A stretch of 32,176 nucleotides of DNA from an uncultured Opitutaceae bacterium (GTDB taxonomy: Bacteria > Verrucomicrobiota > Verrucomicrobiia > Opitutales > Opitutaceae). The stretch spans positions 1 to 32,176 of the forward strand of contig CAISPT010000143.1 in NCBI GenBank assembly GCA_903887455.1, given 5' to 3'. Below the pieces are notes generated by a model. The model had not been told where the DNA came from. It saw nothing but the letters and a program-made list of their open reading frames with translations, and did no database searches. Below, piece after piece: positions 1 to 8,660 of this stretch; position 1 is the first letter of the stretch, and every line of letters starts with the position of its first letter. A program made the translations under genes and the position numbers.

Positions 1-2516
1 GGCTGACGGCCGAGCAGGCCGAAAGGGCCCTGAAGGCGTCGGGCCCCAACACCGTGGCGGCCGGGGGCAGGAAGTCCATCGCCATGGACCTGCTGCACCG
101 CTGCAAGAACCCGCTCGTCATCCAGCTCCTGGTGATGTGCGCCCTCTTCTACTGGGCGGCGGACGACGCCGCGTCGGCCAGCATCGTCGGCGCCATGGTC
201 TTCCTGAGCGTCTTCCTCTCCTACTTCCAGGAGACCCGCTCCTCAAAGGCCGTCGAGAAGCTCCAGAAGATGGTGAAGACGACCGTGACGGTCGTCCGCG
301 ACGGCAAGGAGACCGACATCCAGCTCGAGGAGGTGGTGCCCGGGGACATCGTGATCCTCGCCGCGGGCAGCCTGATCCCCGCCGACCTTCGCATCCTCAC
401 GGCGAAGGACTTCTTCGTCTCCCAGTCCGCCCTGACCGGGGAGTCAATGCCGGTCGAGAAGAGCGCCGACAACAACCAGCCGGCGGGGCGGGTGCCCTTC
501 GAGTACACGAATGCCTGCTTCATGGGCAGCAATGTCCTCTCCGGGTCGGCGAAGGCCATCGTCCTTTACACCGGCGCCACCACCTTCTTCGGCTCGCTCG
601 CCGAGAAGCTGCTCTCCAAGAGAGAGGCGACGAGCTTCGACAAGGGCGTCACGGCGTTCACCTGGCTGATGATTCGGTTCATGATCGTGATGGTGCTCGT
701 GGTGTTTCTGATCATCGGGATCCGCGACCACAACTGGATCGAGGCGATGCTGTTCGGTCTCTCCATCGCCGCCGGGCTGACGCCGGAGATGCTGCCGATG
801 ATCATGACGGTGTGCCTCTCGAAGGGCGCGCTGATGATGTCGCGCAAGAAGGTCATCGTTAAGCACCTCCACGCGATCCAGAACTTCGGAGCGATGGACG
901 TCCTGTGCACCGACAAGACGGGCACCCTCACCCAGGACCACGTCGTGCTCGAACGCTACGTGGACGTCACCAACCGCGTGAGCGACGACGTGCTGCGCTA
1001 CGCGTACATGAACAGCTATTACCAGACGGGGCTGCGCAACCTTCTGGACCGAGCGATCCTTTCCCACACCGACCTGGACGTTGAGCTCAACTGCAAGAAG
1101 GTCGACGAGATCCCGTTCGACTTTAAGAGACGCCGCATGTCGGTCGTGATCGACTACGAGGACCGCCACGTCCTGATCTGCAAGGGTGCCGTGGAGGAGG
1201 TCATCTCCGTCTGTGACAACTACCAGGTCGACGACGACATCAACCCCCTGATCCAGCTGATCCGGGACGACCTGCTCGACGAGTACCGGACGCTGAGCGC
1301 GCAGGGCTACAGGGTCCTCGCTATCGCCTACCGGGAGTTCGACCGCTCGAAGCCCGTGTTCACGGTCGCGGACGAGTCGGAGCTGATCCTGCTGGGCTAT
1401 ATCGCGTTCTTCGACCCCCCGAAGGACACCTCCGCGCGCGCGATCGCGGCGCTCGGCCGCTCGGGCGTCGGGGTGAAGATCCTCACCGGCGACAACGAGC
1501 TGGTGACCCGAAAGGTCTGCGGCGACGTCGGGATGACGATCGCGAAGCTGCTGACCGGACCACAGCTCACCGCGATGGACGAGGCCACCTTTGCCAAGGA
1601 GGTGTCTGAGGCCAACGTGCTCGCGCGGCTGACACCCGACCAGAAGGAGAAGGTGATCAAGAGCCTCAGGTCGCAGGGCCACGTCGTCGGGTTCATGGGC
1701 GACGGGATCAACGATGTTCTCGCGATGAAGGCGGCCGACGTCGGCATCTCGGTCGACACGGCGGTCGACGTCGCCAAGGAGTCCGCCGACATCATCCTGC
1801 TCGAGAAGAGCCTGCTCGTCCTCGAGGACGGGATCATCGAGGGCCGCAAGGTGTTCGGCAACATCATCAAGTACATCAAGATGGGGGCCAGTTCCAACTA
1901 CGGTAACATGTTCAGCATGCTGGGGACCGCGTTTGTCCTGCCCGTGAACCTGCTGCCCATGCTCCCGACCCAGATCCTGGTGAACAACCTCCTCTACGAC
2001 ATCTCACAGGTGGGAATCCCCCTCGACAACGTTGACCCCGAGTACCTGGAGAAGCCCCGCCGGTGGAACATCAAGAGCATCCAGCGCTTCATGTTCTACG
2101 TGGGACCTATCAGCTCGATCTTCGACTACGCCACGTGGTTCCTGATGCTGTACGTCTTCGGATGCGTGGCGTTCGGCAAGAGCGGGACCTCGGAGTCGGC
2201 CAACGCCCACTTCGAGGAGCTCTTCCACACCGCCTGGTTCGTCGAGTCCCTGATCACGCAGACCCTGATCGTCCACGTGATCCGCTCGATCCGCATCCCG
2301 TTCTTCCAGAGCCGGGCGAGCAAGACGATGAGCTTCACCACCTTCCTGGTGATCGCCATCGGCATCTGGCTGCCGTTCTCCCCGTTCGCGAAGCTCCTGC
2401 GCCTCACGCCGATGCCCGCCGTGTTCTTTGCCTGGCTGGCCCTGTTCGCCGTCCTGTATTGCACCCTGACCCATATCGTGAAGACATGGTTCTACAGGCG
2501 CTTCGGCACTGACTAA
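1..2516 (+). CDS. mgtA: Mg2+-importing P-type ATPase, MgtA type (5' truncated)
   Basis: P-type ATPase of the inner membrane that would import Mg2+ at the cost of ATP. The reading frame is open back to the window edge (first full codon at base 3), so the N-terminus is missing; the GTG at 54 lies inside the gene. Visible in order: the actuator-loop TGES (435-446), the PEMLPMI stretch in transmembrane segment 4 typical of MgtA, the phosphorylation motif DKTGTLT (from 912; its Asp is the phosphorylated residue), and the hinge motif GDGIND (1698-1715), followed by several C-terminal membrane segments. The C-terminal half keeps MgtA-like stretches such as SSNYGN and YDISQ, which favours the Mg2+ group over Ca2+ or heavy-metal ATPases. 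Its stop lies 5 bases before the EIIA-domain gene, so the two are probably cotranscribed. The mgtA leader is outside the window. Substrate is inferred from family resemblance. Confidence 0.9.
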   Translation, partial: LTAEQAERALKASGPNTVAAGGRKSIAMDLLHRCKNPLVIQLLVMCALFYWAADDAASASIVGAMVFLSVFLSYFQETRSSKAVEKLQKMVKTTVTVVRDGKETDIQLEEVVPGDIVILAAGSLIPADLRILTAKDFFVSQSALTGESMPVEKSADNNQPAGRVPFEYTNACFMGSNVLSGSAKAIVLYTGATTFFGSLAEKLLSKREATSFDKGVTAFTWLMIRFMIVMVLVVFLIIGIRDHNWIEAMLFGLSIAAGLTPEMLPMIMTVCLSKGALMMSRKKVIVKHLHAIQNFGAMDVLCTDKTGTLTQDHVVLERYVDVTNRVSDDVLRYAYMNSYYQTGLRNLLDRAILSHTDLDVELNCKKVDEIPFDFKRRRMSVVIDYEDRHVLICKGAVEEVISVCDNYQVDDDINPLIQLIRDDLLDEYRTLSAQGYRVLAIAYREFDRSKPVFTVADESELILLGYIAFFDPPKDTSARAIAALGRSGVGVKILTGDNELVTRKVCGDVGMTIAKLLTGPQLTAMDEATFAKEVSEANVLARLTPDQKEKVIKSLRSQGHVVGFMGDGINDVLAMKAADVGISVDTAVDVAKESADIILLEKSLLVLEDGIIEGRKVFGNIIKYIKMGASSNYGNMFSMLGTAFVLPVNLLPMLPTQILVNNLLYDISQVGIPLDNVDPEYLEKPRRWNIKSIQRFMFYVGPISSIFDYATWFLMLYVFGCVAFGKSGTSESANAHFEELFHTAWFVESLITQTLIVHVIRSIRIPFFQSRASKTMSFTTFLVIAIGIWLPFSPFAKLLRLTPMPAVFFAWLALFAVLYCTLTHIVKTWFYRRFGTD

Positions 2517-2521
2517 CCTTT

Positions 2522-3328
2522 ATGCGCAGCATTCTCACCGCACTTCAGGACGGCCGGCTTTTTGAGCTGCCCGAGGCAGCCAGCAAGGACCGGGTCCTCG
2601 CCTTCCTGGCACGCATCCTAGACGCAAACCCGAAGATCGAGGCCGGCGCCGACGCGGTCGAGGAGATCAAGCTCCGGGAGCAGGAGTGCAACACCGGCAT
2701 CGGCCTCGGAGTGGCCGTCCCGCACATGCGCGCCCGCCAGGAGGAGGGGGAGCTGTTCTGCGCGATCGGCTGGTCCTCCCAGGGCATCGACTACGGCTCC
2801 TCGGACGGCATGCCCGTCCACCTGGCCGTGATGTACTACATCCCGGGCGCCCAGAAGAACGTCTACCTGAAGGAGATCTCCACCCTCGTTAAGGCGATCC
2901 GCAAGAGCGGCGGCATCGAGCCGATCGCGAAGGCCCCGGACCTGGGCGCCGTCCGCAACCTCCTGCTCGACTGGGTGAGCTCGGTGTTGTCGGACAGCGG
3001 CCCGGACGCCGTGGCCCGGATGATCAAGCTCGAGGTGAAGCAGGCCCAGGCGGCCCCCGCCCCCGCCGAGCCGGTCCACCAGGCGCCCATCCCGGGTGCG
3101 GCCAAGGCCACCGTCTTCTCGGTCCTGTCCGCGCCCCCGAAGGGCCTCTTCGTGCTGACCCCCGAGGCGGACTGGGGACAGGCCCTGGAGAAGGACGAGT
3201 CCCTGGGCCAGAGGCTGGCCGCCGGGGCGCCCTTTGCCAGCTCCGGACACCTCTTCTATGTCACGGGGTCGACCCCCTTCACCGGGGGAAGGGTCCTTTA
3301 CCACTGCGTGGCGGTGGCCATGGCCTGA
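2522..3328 (+). CDS. PTS EIIA (PtsN/fructose type) domain protein with unknown C-terminal region
   Basis: 268-aa protein. Residues 1-155 resemble a PTS EIIA type-2 domain: the segment GIGLGVAVPHMR places the phospho-accepting histidine at His68, in the usual G-x-AxPH context. In PtsN-like proteins this histidine takes phosphate from the nitrogen PTS and the protein regulates ion transport or metabolism rather than moving sugar. No EIIB or EIIC gene is nearby, which favours a regulatory role. An Ala/Pro-rich linker (about 173-195) leads into about 75 residues I do not recognise. The start codon is only 5 bases after the mgtA stop and has no clear Shine-Dalgarno, suggesting translational coupling to mgtA. 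Control of the Mg2+ transporter is an attractive but untested inference. Confidence 0.8.
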   Translation: MRSILTALQDGRLFELPEAASKDRVLAFLARILDANPKIEAGADAVEEIKLREQECNTGIGLGVAVPHMRARQEEGELFCAIGWSSQGIDYGSSDGMPVHLAVMYYIPGAQKNVYLKEISTLVKAIRKSGGIEPIAKAPDLGAVRNLLLDWVSSVLSDSGPDAVARMIKLEVKQAQAAPAPAEPVHQAPIPGAAKATVFSVLSAPPKGLFVLTPEADWGQALEKDESLGQRLAAGAPFASSGHLFYVTGSTPFTGGRVLYHCVAVAMA

Positions 3329-3402
3329 ATGTAGGGAATTGGCGGATTTGCCCGAGTCGTAACCGTTTCGACACGCTATTGGCACGGGCGGCGTGCACAT
3401 TC

Positions 3403-3423
3403 GGATGCGTAAACCACGCATCC
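3403..3423 (+). repeat. Perfect 7-bp inverted repeat just before a start codon
   Basis: GGATGCG, a 7-base spacer (TAAACCA), then CGCATCC. The second arm ends one base before the GTG start of the GT4 glycosyltransferase at 3425. It lies in the 96-base gap between the EIIA gene and that glycosyltransferase, the largest non-coding stretch in the window. No T-run follows, so it does not look like an intrinsic terminator. In RNA it would fold over the ribosome-binding region; in DNA it could be an operator. Only the repeat itself is seen; the role is unknown. I could not find a convincing -35/-10 pair in the gap. Confidence 0.55.
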
Positions 3424-3424
3424 A

Positions 3425-4597
3425 GTGAAACTCGCGATTGTAACCGAGACCTTTCCCCCGGAAATCAACGGGGTAGCCATGACCTTCGGGGTCATCGCCA
3501 GCGAGCTCGGCCGTCGCGGCCACTCGGTTGCAGTTTACCGTCCCTGGCGGCGCGACCTCCCCAAGGAGACGGCACGACCCGACTTCAGGCAGGTTCCCAT
3601 GCCGGGCATGCCGATCCCGGGTTATCCCCTTCTCCGGCTGGGTCTGCCGGCCGGCGGCTCTTTTAGGAGGTTGTGGGGGAGGGACCGGCCCGACCTGGTC
3701 CACGTGGCCACCGAGGGACCGCTGGGACTGTCGGCCATCCGGGCGGCCCGCGCGCTCGGGATCCCGGTGACCTCCAGCTTCCACACCAACTTCCACGCCT
3801 ACACGAGCCACTACCGGATCCCGCTCCTTAGGAGCCTGGCCCTCGGCTGGCTCAGGCACGTCCACAACCTCACCCGGCGCACCTTCGCCCCCACCCGGGA
3901 GATCTGCGGGGAGCTTTCGGGGGAGGGCTTCACCAACCTCTCGGTCCTCTCCCGCGGGGTGGACACTCGCCAGTTCAGGCCGGAGCGCCGCTCCTTCGCC
4001 CTTAGGAGCAGCTGGAACGCGGGTCCGGACGACCCGGTGGTGATCCACGTGGGCCGGATGGCCGCCGAGAAGAACTATCCCCTGCTCTTCAAGGCCTACG
4101 CCGCGATGAAGGCGGCAAACCCGGCATGCCGGTTCGTCCTGGCGGGCGAAGGCCCCCTGAAGCGCTCGCTCATGAGGGCTCATCCCGACTGCATCTTCGC
4201 GGGGTTCTTCTCCCGCGACGAGATCGGGCGCTACTACGCGTCGGCCGACATCTACATCCACGCAAGCCTCACGGAAACCTTCGGGAATGTGCTGACGGAG
4301 GCGATGGCGAGCGGTCTGGCCACGGCGGGGTTCGACTACGCCGCGGCCCGCATCTTCGTGAAGGACGGCGAGACCGGCCTGTGCGCCCCGTGCGACAAGC
4401 CCGACGCGCTGATCGCTGCGGCCGTGCGCCTGGCCACCGACCCCGCCCTGCGCGAACGCCTCAGGGCGAACGCGAGGCGCGCGGTCGAGGAGCAGTCCTG
4501 GGAGAAGGTGATCGAGACGTTCGAGAGCGACCTGGAGACCGAGGCGGGCAAGCCCGGGCATGCACCGGGAGCCGCACCCCTGCTAGCACAATCATGA
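3425..4597 (+). CDS. GT4-family glycosyltransferase (probable glycolipid synthesis)
   Basis: 390-aa GT-B fold, family 4 glycosyltransferase. The N-terminal acceptor domain opens with the typical VTETFPPEINGVA (residues 6-18). The donor domain carries HVGRMAAEKN (208-217) and the nucleotide-sugar E-x7-E motif (Glu284 and Glu292 in the ETFGNVLTE stretch). The GTG start at 3425 is chosen because the family signature begins almost at once; the next Met (3479) would cut it away. The relatives I recognise are lipid-acting mannosyl-, glucosyl- or sulfoquinovosyl-transferases (MgtA/SQD2/Agt-like), so diacylglycerol or a phosphatidyl lipid is a plausible acceptor. First gene of a four-gene block; its TGA overlaps the ATG of the next gene (ATGA, 4594-4597). 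Sugar and acceptor cannot be read from sequence. Confidence 0.85.
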   Translation: MKLAIVTETFPPEINGVAMTFGVIASELGRRGHSVAVYRPWRRDLPKETARPDFRQVPMPGMPIPGYPLLRLGLPAGGSFRRLWGRDRPDLVHVATEGPLGLSAIRAARALGIPVTSSFHTNFHAYTSHYRIPLLRSLALGWLRHVHNLTRRTFAPTREICGELSGEGFTNLSVLSRGVDTRQFRPERRSFALRSSWNAGPDDPVVIHVGRMAAEKNYPLLFKAYAAMKAANPACRFVLAGEGPLKRSLMRAHPDCIFAGFFSRDEIGRYYASADIYIHASLTETFGNVLTEAMASGLATAGFDYAAARIFVKDGETGLCAPCDKPDALIAAAVRLATDPALRERLRANARRAVEEQSWEKVIETFESDLETEAGKPGHAPGAAPLLAQS

Positions 4598-5727
4598 AGC
4601 ACCGCATCCTCGTACTGACCGCCGCCTATGGTGAGGGACACAATGCGGCGGCCCATGCGCTGGCCGCGGCTTTCAACGAGGACTCGCCGGGGACGGCCTC
4701 GGTGGTCGACATCTTCGCCCTGTCCTGCCCGAGGCTAAACCAGGTCGTTCGCAGGAGCTACCTGGCCGCAATCAACGGCACCCCGAGGCTCTGGAAGCGC
4801 CTGTACGCCCTGATGGACCAGCCCTGGTTCATGCCGAGCGGCCTGTGGATGCTCCGGGCCCAGGCGCGCATGCTCGAGCGCGTGATCGAGCGCGAGCGGC
4901 CGGTCGCCATCTGCAGCACGTTCCCGGCCTACGCGGCGCTCCTGGAGCGCATGCGCCGAGACGACGGACTGCTCGTCCCCCACTTCAACATCGTGACCGA
5001 CTCGATCAGCATCAACTCGGTGTGGTGGCGCCCCGGGTGCGACGGCTGGTTCGTCCCGAACGAGGACTCGGCGGAGGTGATGCGGCGCGCCGGTGTCGAC
5101 CCCGCCAAGCTCCACGTCCTCGGGTTCCCCGTGACGGCGTTCTTCCGGAAGAACGAGGCCACCATGGTGCGCCCGAGCCTGGAGGCCGGGGCCCCTCCCC
5201 GCATCCTCTACATCGTCAACTCCGGCACCAGGAACGCCGAGGCCACGTCCCGCCTGCTCCTTGCCGAGAGCGGCTGGGAGGTGACGATCACCGTCGGCCG
5301 GGATGAGGCGCTGAAGGGCACCCTCGCCGCGCTGGCCCGCGGACGGGCCGCCCGCACCGAGATCCTCGGATGGACCGACCGGATACCGGAGCTGCTGATG
5401 ACCCACCACGTTGTGGTCAGCAAGGCTGGCGGGGCCACGACACAGGAGGCCATCGCGGCCCGCTGCCCGATGATCGTCAACCAGGTCGTCCCCGGCCAGG
5501 AGGAGGGCAACTGCGAGCTGCTCCTCCGGCACTCGGCGGGCGCGCTGGCCACGACCCCGGCCGCGGTCGTCGCCACCCTGAAGGCCGCCTTCGCCGACCG
5601 CGGGCGCGGCTGGACGGGCTGGCGCTCCGCGCTTGAACCCATCGCGCGCCCCGACGCGGCCCGCGCCATCGCCTCCCATGTCCTCCAGATCGCCCAAGGC
5701 GCCCCCCTCGCTCCCGTAGAACTATGA
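4594..5727 (+). CDS. MGDG synthase/UgtP-like diacylglycerol glycosyltransferase
   Basis: 377-aa GT28-type glycosyltransferase. The N-terminal part matches the MGDG-synthase domain (GEGH at 13-16 in the TAAYGEGHNAAA stretch). The C-terminal part holds the UDP-sugar-binding region: GWTDRIPELL from 259, SKAGGATTQEA at 276-286 and PGQEEGN at 300-306, as in the UgtP and plant MGDG synthase families. Those enzymes transfer glucose or galactose from the UDP-sugar to diacylglycerol at the inner membrane. The ATG at 4594 is preferred over upstream in-frame starts because it sits in an ATGA overlap with the preceding stop and begins the conserved domain. The gene ends in another ATGA overlap (5724-5727) with the lipid kinase gene. 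Sugar and acceptor are inferred. Confidence 0.85.
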   Translation: MKHRILVLTAAYGEGHNAAAHALAAAFNEDSPGTASVVDIFALSCPRLNQVVRRSYLAAINGTPRLWKRLYALMDQPWFMPSGLWMLRAQARMLERVIERERPVAICSTFPAYAALLERMRRDDGLLVPHFNIVTDSISINSVWWRPGCDGWFVPNEDSAEVMRRAGVDPAKLHVLGFPVTAFFRKNEATMVRPSLEAGAPPRILYIVNSGTRNAEATSRLLLAESGWEVTITVGRDEALKGTLAALARGRAARTEILGWTDRIPELLMTHHVVVSKAGGATTQEAIAARCPMIVNQVVPGQEEGNCELLLRHSAGALATTPAAVVATLKAAFADRGRGWTGWRSALEPIARPDAARAIASHVLQIAQGAPLAPVEL

Positions 5728-6668
5728 AGGTGCGTTTCATCTTTAACCCGAGGTCCGGCCGCCCCAAGCGGAACGCCCCGCTCCTTCCCATGCTCCGGCG
5801 CTTCATCGCGGCCCGCGCCCTCGACGCCGACCTGGCATGCACCGAGGGGCCCGGGCACGCCACCGAGCTCGCCCGGGAGGCCGTCGACCGCGGCTGCCTG
5901 CGCGTCGTGGCCGTGGGCGGAGACGGCACTGTCAACGAGGTCGCCCAGGCGCTCATCCACGCCCCGGCCGCCATGGGACTGGTCCCCTGCGGCTCGGGCA
6001 ACGGGCTGGCACTCCACCTGGGCCTGCCGCGCCGGTTTGAGGGCGCACTGGAACTGGCGGCGGGAGCGAGCGGCAGGACGGCCGCCCTCGACACCGGCGT
6101 TGTGAACGGCCTGGTCTTCGTGAACGCCATGGGCCTCGGCCTGGACGCCGACGTGGCCCACCGTTTCAACAAGCTCACCAAGCGCGGCCTGCCGGCCTAC
6201 GCGAGGACGGCCCTCGCGGCTTTCACCACGAGGAAGACCGAGCGCTGCATCGTGACCGCCGGGGGGCGCCGCGAAACCGTCGACATGCTCCTGATCGCGG
6301 TCGCCAACTCCGACCAGTACGGCAACGACGCGAAGATAGCCCCCCTGGCTCGGGTCGACGACGGGGCGCTCGACCTGGTGGTCGTCAGCCCGGTCGGCTG
6401 GCTTTCGGCGGCCGTCCTCGGCGCCCGACTCTTCCTGGGCACGACCCACCTGAGCTCCGGGGTGCGCCGGATCCTCGGCCCCTCCTTCACGATCGAGCGT
6501 CCCGCCGCCGGCCTCATCCACACCGATGGGGAAACCCACTTCACGGGGGCCCGTATCGAGGTCTCCGTCCAGCCGCGGAGCTTGAGGATGATCGTTCCGG
6601 CGGACTGCCGAGCGGTCTCCTCGGGCAACGACAAGGCCACGGCGGGTTTCGCGCTTCAACTGCCATGA
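5724..6668 (+). CDS. Diacylglycerol kinase-family lipid kinase (DagK/YegS type)
   Basis: 314-aa member of the soluble diacylglycerol/sphingosine kinase catalytic family, which phosphorylates diacylglycerol or a similar lipid to a phosphatidic-acid-type product. The nucleotide-binding motif GGDGTVNE is at 65-72 and the second conserved motif, GSGNGLA, at 90-96. The N-terminal FIFNPRSG stretch is the usual opening of the fold. Length is normal for the family. It overlaps both neighbours by ATGA (5724-5727 and 6665-6668), tying its translation to two glycosyltransferases and a phosphoesterase. In that setting it could recycle diacylglycerol to phosphatidic acid and balance the glycosyltransferases that consume it. 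The exact substrate is not visible. Confidence 0.87.
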   Translation: MKVRFIFNPRSGRPKRNAPLLPMLRRFIAARALDADLACTEGPGHATELAREAVDRGCLRVVAVGGDGTVNEVAQALIHAPAAMGLVPCGSGNGLALHLGLPRRFEGALELAAGASGRTAALDTGVVNGLVFVNAMGLGLDADVAHRFNKLTKRGLPAYARTALAAFTTRKTERCIVTAGGRRETVDMLLIAVANSDQYGNDAKIAPLARVDDGALDLVVVSPVGWLSAAVLGARLFLGTTHLSSGVRRILGPSFTIERPAAGLIHTDGETHFTGARIEVSVQPRSLRMIVPADCRAVSSGNDKATAGFALQLP

Positions 6669-7519
6669 AGAAGCTACGCGTCAGGACCGTCATCATCTCC
6701 GACATCCACCTCGGGACCGTCGATTCGAAGGTCCAGGAGGTGAACCACTTCCTCCGGCACGTGCGCTGCGAGAAGCTGATCCTCAACGGGGACATCATCG
6801 ACGGATGGCAGCTCAAGCGCAACGGCCAGTGGACCAAGGCCCACACCCATTTCATCCGGATCGTGCTTAAGATGCTCGAGAAGCGCGACACGCAGATCGT
6901 GTACCTGCGGGGCAACCACGACGACATCCTCTCGAAATTCCTGCCGCTCGAGTTCGAGAACCTTCTGATCGTCGACGAGTACCTCCATGACGGGGCAAAG
7001 GGGCGCTACCTGGTGCTCCACGGCGACGTCTTTGACACGGTGACAAAGAACTTCGTCTTCCTGGCCCACCTGGGGGACTGGGGCTACCATGCCCTCCTCG
7101 CCATCAACCGGGCCTACAACGTGTGGAGGAGCTGGCGCGGGCTCGAGTACTGGTCGCTCAGCCGCGCGATCAAGGCGCGCGTCAAGTCGGCCGTGAGCCA
7201 CGTCTCCAACTTCGAGGAACACATCGCCGACCTGGCCCGCAGCCGGGGCTGCTCGGGGGTGATGTGCGGCCACATCCACACGCCCGCCGACAAGATGTTG
7301 GGCAACATCCACTACCTGAATTCCGGTGACTGGATCGAGTCCCTCACGGCCGTCGTGGAGCACTGGGACGGGAGCTACCAGCTGATCGAGTACTCGGACT
7401 TCCTGAAGGAGTTCCCCGTCGAGGCCGAGGGCGCCACCGTGGACGACTCCGAGGTCGCCCCGGCCGTGCAGCAGGCGCCCTCCCCCGCCCCGGCTCCCAC
7501 CGTGTCGCCGGTTGTCTGA
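6665..7519 (+). CDS. Calcineurin-type metallophosphoesterase, LpxH/PlcP-like
   Basis: 284-aa binuclear-metal phosphoesterase. All metal-ligand blocks are present: SDIHLG (Asp13, His15), GDIIDGW (Asp43), GNHD (83-86), HGD (119-121) and GHIH (202-205). Annotation pipelines usually call this family UDP-2,3-diacylglucosamine pyrophosphatase (LpxH-like). However, features such as LAHLGDWGYHAL, YWSLSRAIKARVK and GDWIESLTAVVEH resemble, from memory, the PlcP group, phospholipase-C-like enzymes that release diacylglycerol from phospholipids during phosphate starvation. The context of two lipid glycosyltransferases and a diacylglycerol kinase supports that reading. No lpx gene is nearby. A Pro/Ala/Val-rich tail of about 25 residues ends the protein. 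The start lies in an ATGA overlap with the kinase gene. LpxH activity remains a real alternative. Confidence 0.85.
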   Translation: MKKLRVRTVIISDIHLGTVDSKVQEVNHFLRHVRCEKLILNGDIIDGWQLKRNGQWTKAHTHFIRIVLKMLEKRDTQIVYLRGNHDDILSKFLPLEFENLLIVDEYLHDGAKGRYLVLHGDVFDTVTKNFVFLAHLGDWGYHALLAINRAYNVWRSWRGLEYWSLSRAIKARVKSAVSHVSNFEEHIADLARSRGCSGVMCGHIHTPADKMLGNIHYLNSGDWIESLTAVVEHWDGSYQLIEYSDFLKEFPVEAEGATVDDSEVAPAVQQAPSPAPAPTVSPVV

Positions 7520-7537
7520 CGCCGGCCTGAGGCGGGA

Positions 7538-7566
7538 TTGACAGGGGCCGGGGCGGCGATCGTCTT
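7538..7566 (+). promoter_or_regulatory. Possible sigma-70-type promoter for mnmA
   Basis: A perfect TTGACA lies at 7538-7543 in the 58-base gap before mnmA. The hexamer 17 bases downstream (7561-7566, CGTCTT) is a poor -10 match, so only the -35 element is convincing. The GC-rich spacer is in keeping with the genome. It would let mnmA be transcribed separately from the lipid gene block. Prediction by eye only. Confidence 0.3.
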
Positions 7567-7577
7567 GGTCCTCTGCC

Positions 7578-8660
7578 GTGAAAGAGCGTGAAAAGATCGT
7601 CGTCGCGATGTCCGGGGGCGTAGACAGCTCGGTCGCCGCCCTCCTGCTGAAGCAAAAGGGGTACGACGTCTCGGGCGCGTACATGAAGAACTGGATCAAC
7701 GAGGACGGCGTCGTCGGCCACTGCCCCTGGATGGAGGACATCGAGGATGCAAGGAGGGTCGCCGACCAGGTCGGGATCCCCTTCCAGGTCGTGAATCTCA
7801 TGCGCGACTACAGGGAGAAGGTCGTGCAGTACCTCCTGGAGGGCTACGAGCGGGGGCAGACGCCCAACCCCGACGTCATGTGCAACCGGGAGATCAAGTT
7901 CGGGGTGTTCCGCTCCTGGGCCCGGAGCCAAGGCTTCGGCGTGGTGGCGACAGGGCACTACGCCCGCCGGATCACGGCCCCGGACGGCTCCGTCTTCCTG
8001 AGCGAGGCAGCCGACTCCAACAAGGACCAGACCTACTTTCTTGCGCTCCTGGGCCAAGACCAGGTCCGGGACGCCCTGTTCCCGATAGGCGACCTGGAAA
8101 AGCCAGAGCTCCGCCGCATCGCGCGGGACGCCGGGCTGTCGACGGCCGACAAGAAGGACAGCCAGGGCATCTGCTTCATCGGCGAGGTGAAGATGGGCGA
8201 CTTCCTGAAGGCCTATGTGCCGGACCGGCCTGGCCCCATCGTGCGCGCGTCCGACCAGCGGGAGCTCGGGACCCACCGGGGTCTTCACTACTACACCCTC
8301 GGCCAGCGCCGGGGCATCCGTGTCCCCTCGAACACCGACCACGAGCGCTACGTCGTGGTCGGAAAGCGTCCCTCGGACAATGCGCTCCTGGTGGCCTTCG
8401 ATGGGCCCGAGGCGCCCGGGCTCTTCCAGACTGAGGTCCAGGTCCACTCGATCTCCTGGTGCGGCGCCCCCCCCTCCCCCGGGGCCCCGCTCGAGGGCCG
8501 GGTCCGCTACCGGGACCCGAGGGTCCCCCTCAATCTGGAGCAGACGGGCGGCGCCTCGGCGCTCGTGCGCTTCAAGGAGCCCCAGCGGGCCCTCGCGTCC
8601 GGCCAGGTGCTCGCCCTCTACGAAGGACCGAGGCTTCTAGGCGGCGCGGTCTACGCCTAG
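7578..8660 (+). CDS. mnmA: tRNA-specific 2-thiouridylase MnmA
   Basis: 360-aa cytoplasmic enzyme that adds sulfur to U34 of the tRNAs for Lys, Glu and Gln, using ATP and a persulfide relay. The ATP-pyrophosphatase P-loop AMSGGVDSS is at 10-18. The two catalytic cysteines are Cys102 ([13 protein letters not shown]) and Cys199 ([10 protein letters not shown]). The conserved TGHYAR and DQTYFL stretches lie between them, and the LGQRRGI motif lies in the tRNA-binding middle domain. Start is a GTG at 7578 placed just before the P-loop, as usual; length is normal. It is separated by 58 bases from the preceding gene, so it is probably not part of that block. Its TAG stop overlaps, on the opposite strand, the stop of the LysE-type gene. 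Confidence 0.95.
8657..8660. other. CTAG shared by two convergent stop codons
   Basis: The palindrome CTAG supplies TAG to mnmA on the plus strand (8658-8660) and TAG to the LysE-family gene on the minus strand (8659-8657). No intergenic space is left for a terminator between the two transcription units, so any termination must occur inside the opposite gene or depend on Rho. Confidence 0.85.

Follow-up and report, generated by a model that had tools for sequence, protein, structure and literature searches.

A candidate four-gene membrane-lipid remodeling operon of a phosphate-starvation regulon in the Opitutaceae

Overview of the operon and its predicted function

The DNA considered here is a 32,176-nucleotide stretch (hereinafter the window) from an uncultured Opitutaceae bacterium, namely contig CAISPT010000143.1 (C143) of assembly GCA_903887455.1, which comprises 3.34 Mb in 376 contigs with a completeness of 93.5%. 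Its forward strand carries a block of four overlapping genes, positions 3425–7519, which is very probably a membrane-lipid remodeling operon of a phosphate-starvation (PhoB-type) regulon. In order, the genes code for a GT4 glycosyltransferase (3425–4597, start GTG), predicted to add the first sugar to diacylglycerol (DAG); a UgtP/MGD1-type glycosyltransferase (4594–5727), predicted to act on DAG or glycosyl-DAG; a YegS/DgkB-type lipid kinase (5724–6668), a predicted DAG kinase; and a PlcP-type metallophosphoesterase (PE; 6665–7519), a predicted phospholipase C releasing DAG. In the open reading frame calls, each neighboring pair has an ATGA in common (at 4594, 5724 and 6665). This confirms the four-gene block with three such overlaps described in the first-pass annotation of this DNA, and the enzyme families named there are borne out by Pfam cut-offs. 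The lipid-remodeling reading proposed there is likewise supported by the grouping of PE with PlcP, the presence of separate LpxI and LpxC, and the upstream site arrays and pst neighborhoods described below.

From family membership and genomic context we infer the enzyme activities and their substrates, the sugars and their order, the role of the kinase, and regulator binding and induction. Under scarce phosphate, a PhoB-like regulator would bind an array of half-sites phased at 11 bp upstream of the operon and switch on all four genes. PlcP would then cut the head groups from phospholipids, leaving DAG, to which the GT4 enzyme and the UgtP/MGD1-type transferase would add one or more sugars to form phosphorus-free glycolipids. 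The kinase may return excess DAG to phosphatidic acid, preventing DAG build-up and allowing phospholipid synthesis to restart once phosphate returns.

The phosphoesterase groups with PlcP

By sequence comparison PE goes with PlcP, not LpxH, and phospholipase C activity is predicted for it. It exceeds the Pfam cut-off for Metallophos (PF00149) and scores 294.2 bits on a PlcP profile, built from two verified proteins and four unverified homologs, against 55.4 bits on an LpxH profile; leave-one-out scores on these profiles were 364–417 bits for PlcP and 185–268 bits for LpxH. PE is 46.5% identical to Pseudomonas aeruginosa PlcP and 40% identical over 272 amino acids to Sinorhizobium meliloti PlcP, as compared to 22% for Escherichia coli LpxH, and it stays under the NCBI cut-offs for LpxH (43 of 134 bits for PRK05340 and 20.8 of 190.35 bits for TIGR01854). 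The motifs SDxHLG, GDxxD, GNHD, HGD and GHIH, which we take to be the metal-site motifs of calcineurin-like esterases, are invariant across 12 aligned sequences including those of S. meliloti and P. aeruginosa. PlcP is reportedly Mn-dependent. Among the best loci listed, the closest named relatives of PE come from the Opitutaceae metagenome-assembled genomes bog_1449 (83% identity) and palsa_1446 (93% over 233 amino acids).

The S. meliloti reference (L086) was taken as SMc00171 because an acyl-homoserine lactone (AHL) synthase and a LuxR gene adjoin it, the verified SMc00171 presumably adjoining sinI/sinR. Its record (CP090106.1) is named pSymB, is 3.7 Mb long and carries the AHL synthase/LuxR/PlcP region, which we assume to be chromosomal in this species, so that the label may have been swapped. 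The P. aeruginosa reference (L088) was equated with PA3219/PlcP on two grounds, namely the GT4 gene next to it on the downstream side and an identity of 46.6% to the S. meliloti protein; PMC8528852 gives 46% identity between the two PlcPs and places PA3218 immediately downstream of PA3219. The record of this reference, NZ_CP137508.1, is a P. aeruginosa plasmid record with a copy of the plcP-agt1 region, and two further plasmid records of this species also have a plcP match.

The genome context points the same way. This genome has an LpxI_C match on contig C114 (139.3 bits), as do 53 of the 57 genomes searched, as well as an LpxC match (found in 52 of the 57); hence, PE is dispensable for lipid A synthesis. 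The first-pass annotation had called for a check for a separate lpxH or lpxI, and had set against its own proposal the case of an LpxH-like PE in a genome with no other LpxH or LpxI; with LpxI and LpxC present, that case does not apply. PE is one of five metallophosphoesterases detected in this genome, the others being one related to ApaH and Ser/Thr phosphatases, one matching TIGR00282, one weakly matching TIGR03767 and one with no NCBIfam match; none of these four matches the LpxH model at an E-value of 0.001.

A tree with verified PlcP and LpxH proteins was likewise suggested at first pass. Built from 42 selected loci and 15 references plus the window, it places PE on the PlcP side (52 of 58 rows, 100/99 support), across a very long branch from LpxH. 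An approximately unbiased (AU) test of trees holding the window and LpxH together did not reject that grouping (p-AU 0.257), and long branches were flagged; the tree thus adds little beyond the profile scores. The expectation that PE would normally be labeled LpxH also held in part: relatives on plasmid records are annotated as UDP-2,3-diacylglucosamine diphosphatase, but PE itself falls far below the NCBI cut-offs for LpxH.

Conservation of the gene neighborhood

PE is present in 43 of the 57 genomes including this one: 33 of 37 within the family and 10 of 20 outside it. The neighborhood survey suggested by the first-pass annotation covered one locus per genome (n = 42; a partial second match, G008:C138, was left out), a gene that had diverged beyond the reach of the tblastn threshold counting as absent and the 42 relatives' loci being mutually non-independent. 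All four genes occur in the same order in 19 of these loci, all from the same family, and are found in 11 of the 12 other genomes of the genus. GT4 and PE were detected together in 33 loci, seven of which have these two alone, four the second transferase in addition and three the kinase in addition. The remaining loci comprise two with the second transferase and PE, one with the kinase and PE and six with PE lacking the other three.

Among the best 80 loci listed, the GT4–PE pair is also seen in Verrucomicrobiales, while 35 of the 40 Bacteroidota loci (among L122–L167) have a different transferase after PE. The copy of this transferase in L087 is MJ1255-like (66.7 of 195.9 bits) with the Pfam domain Glyco_trans_1_3. 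Thus, PlcP stays while the transferase partner changes with the phylum. At L087:5977-7898 a PlcP-like gene is followed by the MJ1255-like glycosyltransferase gene, an arrangement also found in gut Bacteroides and Parabacteroides. LpxH-like genes in Bacteroidota are separate from the PlcP-like ones (L183 and L184), making the PlcP-like and MJ1255-like genes a candidate second lipid-remodeling pair.

The glycosyltransferases and the lipid kinase

The first three operon products (TRANSFERASES and kinase) are the GT4 enzyme, the UgtP/MGD1-type transferase and the YegS-type kinase. The GT4 protein contains PF13439 and PF00534, both above cut-offs, and its best two NCBIfam matches are to lipid transferases, each well short of its cut-off: GlcN-PG synthase at 131.5 of 480 bits and alpha-MGlcDAG synthase at 100.5 of 400 bits. 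It is 31% identical to P. aeruginosa Agt1 and has Agt-type motifs, namely GRMAAEKN (GRVAxEKN with one conservative change) and the catalytic His in SFHTNF. At the catalytic Asp of Agt (TDTFG motif; Asp256 of GTcp, PMC8231724) it has a Glu, and in that paper the D256E mutant of GTcp loses more than 90% of its activity. Glu occupies this position in 52 of 53 Verrucomicrobiota rows (the window and some duplicate loci included), L118 having Asp, while all five Agt-type GT4 rows from Pseudomonadota have Asp. The GT4 adjoining PlcP in Thiodictyon likewise has Glu. As Glu replaces the diagnostic Asp, we reject the identification of this GT4 as a standard Agt, which corrects the parallel with Agt drawn in the first-pass annotation.

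The second transferase fared better, its description as UgtP/MGDG-synthase-like being upheld by a MGDG_synth (PF06925) match of 71.7 bits against a cut-off of 25 and by matches to the solved structures of a processive DAG beta-glucosyltransferase (9wde, 1.4e-24) and MGD1 (4wyi, 5.8e-21). Against the diglucosyl-DAG synthase model PRK13609 it scores 164.9 of 500 bits, far under the cut-off for a UgtP equivalog. Elsewhere in the assembly (G000:C161:1663-2160) lies the gene for another protein that weakly matches MGDG_synth (26.6 bits).

The kinase combines the Pfam domains DAGK_cat (PF00781) and YegS_C, exceeds the TIGR00147 cut-off (127.1 versus 118.65 bits) and matches the structures of YegS (2bon) and DgkB (2qv7). 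Its predicted role in recycling DAG is the weakest step of the proposed mechanism. YegS-type kinases have varied, partly unknown substrates, and this one might act on another lipid, such as a sphingoid base, a ceramide or a glycolipid, in which case the operon would make a phosphorylated lipid or one with a different backbone instead of recycling DAG. Consistent with this, the kinase was undetected beside PlcP in 19 of the 42 loci, and it is therefore not essential to the core of the system. We nevertheless consider this alternative unlikely since the kinase is the sole PF00781 match in the assembly, a search for DgkA in this genome gave no match, and the other three enzymes would be expected to share DAG as a metabolite.

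A Pho-box-like array upstream of the operon

The forward strand at 3346–3385 carries a Pho-box-like array of four half-sites, TTTGCC, CGTAAC, CGACAC and TGGCAC, at an 11-bp phase (with spacers, TTTGCC-CGAGT-CGTAAC-CGTTT-CGACAC-GCTAT-TGGCAC). It lies 40–79 bp upstream of the operon, ending 39 bp before the GT4 start. With 19.1 bits, it is the best position weight matrix match in the window (the next scoring 13.2), and three of its half-sites hold invariant bases in an alignment of 11 congener upstream regions, the window included. De novo motif discovery in 40 upstream regions, with eleven congeners kept out of the training set and the window kept in, recovered the motif nTTTcACnnAATCGTAAC with a log-likelihood of 218, versus 60–72 in six shuffled sets. 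The motif lies mostly 65–130 bp before the GT4 start, and its units form direct repeats every 11 bp, as in PhoB sites. Judged from these sequence features, the upstream site is a putative variant of the Pho box.

The motif held up in cross-validation, for which named loci were assigned to the family by hand. A matrix built from 24 regions of the family's other genera scored above the 95% null in every one of the genus's 12 regions, that of the window among them, and in 8 of 15 regions from other families or orders. One trained on these 15 regions (consensus TGTGACGAAATTGTCACA) did so in 10 of the 12 genus regions and 14 of the 24 from other genera. In 34 of the 42 loci the first lipid gene or PE is preceded, at a distance of no more than 200 bp, by a match scoring 15 bits or higher, in some cases on the other strand; 19 of these 34 were in the training set and 15 were not, 11 of the latter being congeners of the window, which was itself in the training set. 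Where no GT4 lies upstream (L051, L064, L067 and L077), the site stands before the gene for the second transferase or PE, and in L046, where the kinase gene stands apart, an extra site pair precedes it.

Sites shared with pst genes and pst linkage

Comparable sites accompany phosphate-uptake genes. Upstream of pstS in this genome are four half-sites at the same phase (TTTAAC-GGGAG-TGTCAC-TGGGC-CGTCAC-GCATC-TGTAAC). In 14 of 40 pst regions (40 places in 39 genomes; 55 genomes have any pstC match and 41 one over the cut-off), the 1.9 kb preceding the pstC domain contain a match of 15 bits or more, and the match rate in these regions is 7.8 per 100 kb versus 1.1 in shuffled sequence. A pattern of three half-sites gave 77 matches in 37 genomes of the family, versus 18 for a reversed control. 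Counting a match as lipid-related if at most 4 kb before PE on its strand and as pst-related if at most 4.5 kb before pstC, 16 precede the lipid operon, 17 precede pst on the same strand and two precede it on the other strand. In this genome the pattern matches four times, before this operon, pstS, a Porin_O_P gene and dnaA. The match at L242:1501-1527 lies just before the gene for the Porin_O_P phosphate-selective porin, a gene unused in drawing the pattern. The one before dnaA (L240:1501-1527) may reflect chance or a link between replication and phosphate.

The pst genes lie within 20 kb of PE in 11 of 40 genomes, spanning nine genera; of the 43 genomes with PE, this sample covered 39 with pstC over the cut-off and G038, where it is under, but not G002, G007 or G011. 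A series of genes begins 0.4 kb after the operon in L193, encoding a porin (Porin_5), PstS, PstC, PstA, PhoU and a PhoB-like regulator that scores 249 of 296 bits; a simple gene finder called no pstB there. The phosphate link, only inferred at first pass, thereby gains genomic support from the arrays common to pst and from the pst neighborhoods.

Evaluation of the regulatory proposal

Several observations weigh against a phosphate-regulated lipid-remodeling operon. In eight of the 42 loci (L065, L066, L068, L071, L072, L075, L078 and L079) no match close to the first gene reaches 15 bits, and in several others the match is on the opposite strand. The E. coli Pho-box consensus CTGTCATNNNNCTGTCAT beat all its shuffles in only one of 51 upstream regions (L109), the scan being confined to loci with a GT4 match and two of 53 upstream regions having been dropped as duplicates. 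In the window its best match is 8 of 14 positions against a shuffle mean of 8.6, which is not above chance; before the plcP genes of P. aeruginosa and S. meliloti, too, it reaches only 10 of 14. Matrix matches are also raised in lipid-region DNA outside the GT4 upstream regions (23 in 439 kb, or 5.2 versus 0.6 per 100 kb shuffled); many of these precede genes of split lipid units or sit in pst neighborhoods, and some are unexplained. The pst site of this genome scores only 12–13 bits with the matrix, its pst genes are on another contig, and its best PhoB-like protein (coded on contig C316; 254.3 bits) is under the cut-off of 296.2. The three-half-site pattern was drawn after the lipid and pst arrays had been seen, about 1.7 chance matches are expected per genome of this size (a rough figure from one shuffled match), one of the four matches in this genome precedes dnaA, and 42 of the 77 in the family lie elsewhere. 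Finally, a co-induced kinase that undoes the work of PlcP would waste ATP unless controlled.

UgtP-type enzymes make structural glycolipids in Firmicutes. In the same vein, the block could be a constitutive glycolipid operon whose transferases always make structural glycolipids, with PlcP and the kinase balancing the DAG pool and phosphate being no signal. The absence of the diagnostic Asp of Agt from the GT4 fits such a role; against it stand the array common to pst operons and the phosphate-selective porin gene, the pst linkage, and the presence of a dedicated site before genes that stand apart. On balance, a constitutive operon appears improbable. The idea that PE is the LpxH of the organism and that the block serves lipid A or outer-membrane synthesis draws on the shared superfamily, the annotation of the plasmid-record relatives and the AU test, but is rejected as scarcely credible given the profile scores (294 bits for PlcP versus 55 for LpxH), the sub-cut-off NCBI scores, the presence of both LpxI and LpxC, and a Parabacteroides distasonis strain with a PlcP-like gene that has an LpxH-like gene on another record.

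A possible leader hairpin and the flanking genes

One base before the GTG start lies an inverted repeat (3403–3423, forward strand) with an 8-bp stem and an AAACC loop, GGATGCGT-AAACC-ACGCATCC. This hairpin appears in the predicted fold and is found in 9 of 11 aligned congener sequences, the window included; in those nine, 95.8% of cells are paired and three pairs show changes on both sides, i.e., the stem covaries among congeners. The hairpin pattern tried had no further exact match in this genome. This genus-restricted repeat may form a 5′ leader hairpin and is possibly a translation control element. No Rfam model matched the window at its gathering threshold, and no sigma-70-like promoter was found in 3300–7620.

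The operon is flanked on its 5′ side by genes for a magnesium P-type ATPase (MgtA-type) and a phosphotransferase system (PTS) EIIA-like protein (54–3328), and on its 3′ side by mnmA. Of these two upstream genes, the one surveyed across loci was that for the EIIA-like protein, which was detected in 8 of the 12 loci from congeners but not in any of the other 30.

Relationship to known systems and implications

The coupling of PlcP to glycosyltransferases in lipid remodeling is already established (PMC4796936 and PMC8528852). The P. aeruginosa system (PlcP-Agt1/Agt2; PA3219-PA3218 and PA0842), as described in PMC8528852, resembles the Opitutaceae operon in having a PlcP homolog adjoining a GT4, an upstream Pho box (in Opitutaceae, the Pho-box-like array) and DAG as the hub, which for Opitutaceae is a prediction. 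The Opitutaceae operon differs from that account in having the glycosyltransferase first (reversed order), a Glu-type GT4 and a different site sequence, and in adding the UgtP/MGD1-type transferase and the lipid kinase. The marine plcP contexts of Sebastian et al. (PMC4796936) similarly have plcP beside glycosyltransferases with putative Pho boxes, and a verrucomicrobium is already named there among the PlcP carriers. As worded there, the six types of gene context include none in which a GT4, a MGDG_synth-type transferase, a kinase and plcP occur together, and the word "kinase" is absent from the main text. In the record examined, S. meliloti SMc00171 has as neighbors an AHL synthase, a LuxR gene and a major facilitator superfamily transporter and, unlike the Opitutaceae operon, no transferase. 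Bacillus UgtP/YpfP and chloroplast MGD1 belong to the same family as the second transferase, which in Opitutaceae is tied to PlcP. PMC5193443 and PMC9239053 report, respectively, an Agt homolog in Desulfovibrio and no PlcP in verrucomicrobial methanotrophs.

In the literature searched, no paper treated plcP, a diacylglycerol kinase and a glycosyltransferase together, and PMC4796936 was the only one with both Verrucomicrobi* and Pho box. Searches pairing plcP with Verrucomicrobia or lipid remodeling, or Opitut* with the Pho regulon or glycolipids, showed no report of this operon among the matches listed. For Opitutaceae, the novelty lies in the block of four genes, a GT4 distinct from Agt, an array resembling Pho boxes and the proximity of pst.

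A broader proposal, which we hold in even balance, is that Opitutales possess a DAG hub that is reversible and complete in itself, encoded in a single transcription unit under Pho control: PlcP would supply the DAG, two unrelated transferases would convert it to lipids carrying one or two sugars, and the dedicated kinase would serve as the reverse gear. The Glu-type GT4 would then have acquired its activity on DAG independently of Agt, and different phyla would have paired PlcP with transferases of their own: Agt in Pseudomonadota, the Glu-type GT4 in Verrucomicrobiota and the MJ1255-like enzyme in Bacteroidota.

The operon names candidate glycolipid enzymes for Verrucomicrobiota, and the placement of PE suggests that relatives now labeled as lipid A enzymes are likelier to be phospholipases. 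If our reading of the operon is true, the site motif could let the Pho regulon of a Verrucomicrobiota family be read from sequence, and phosphate-starvation lipid swapping would be built into this family, beyond Proteobacteria and Flavobacteria.

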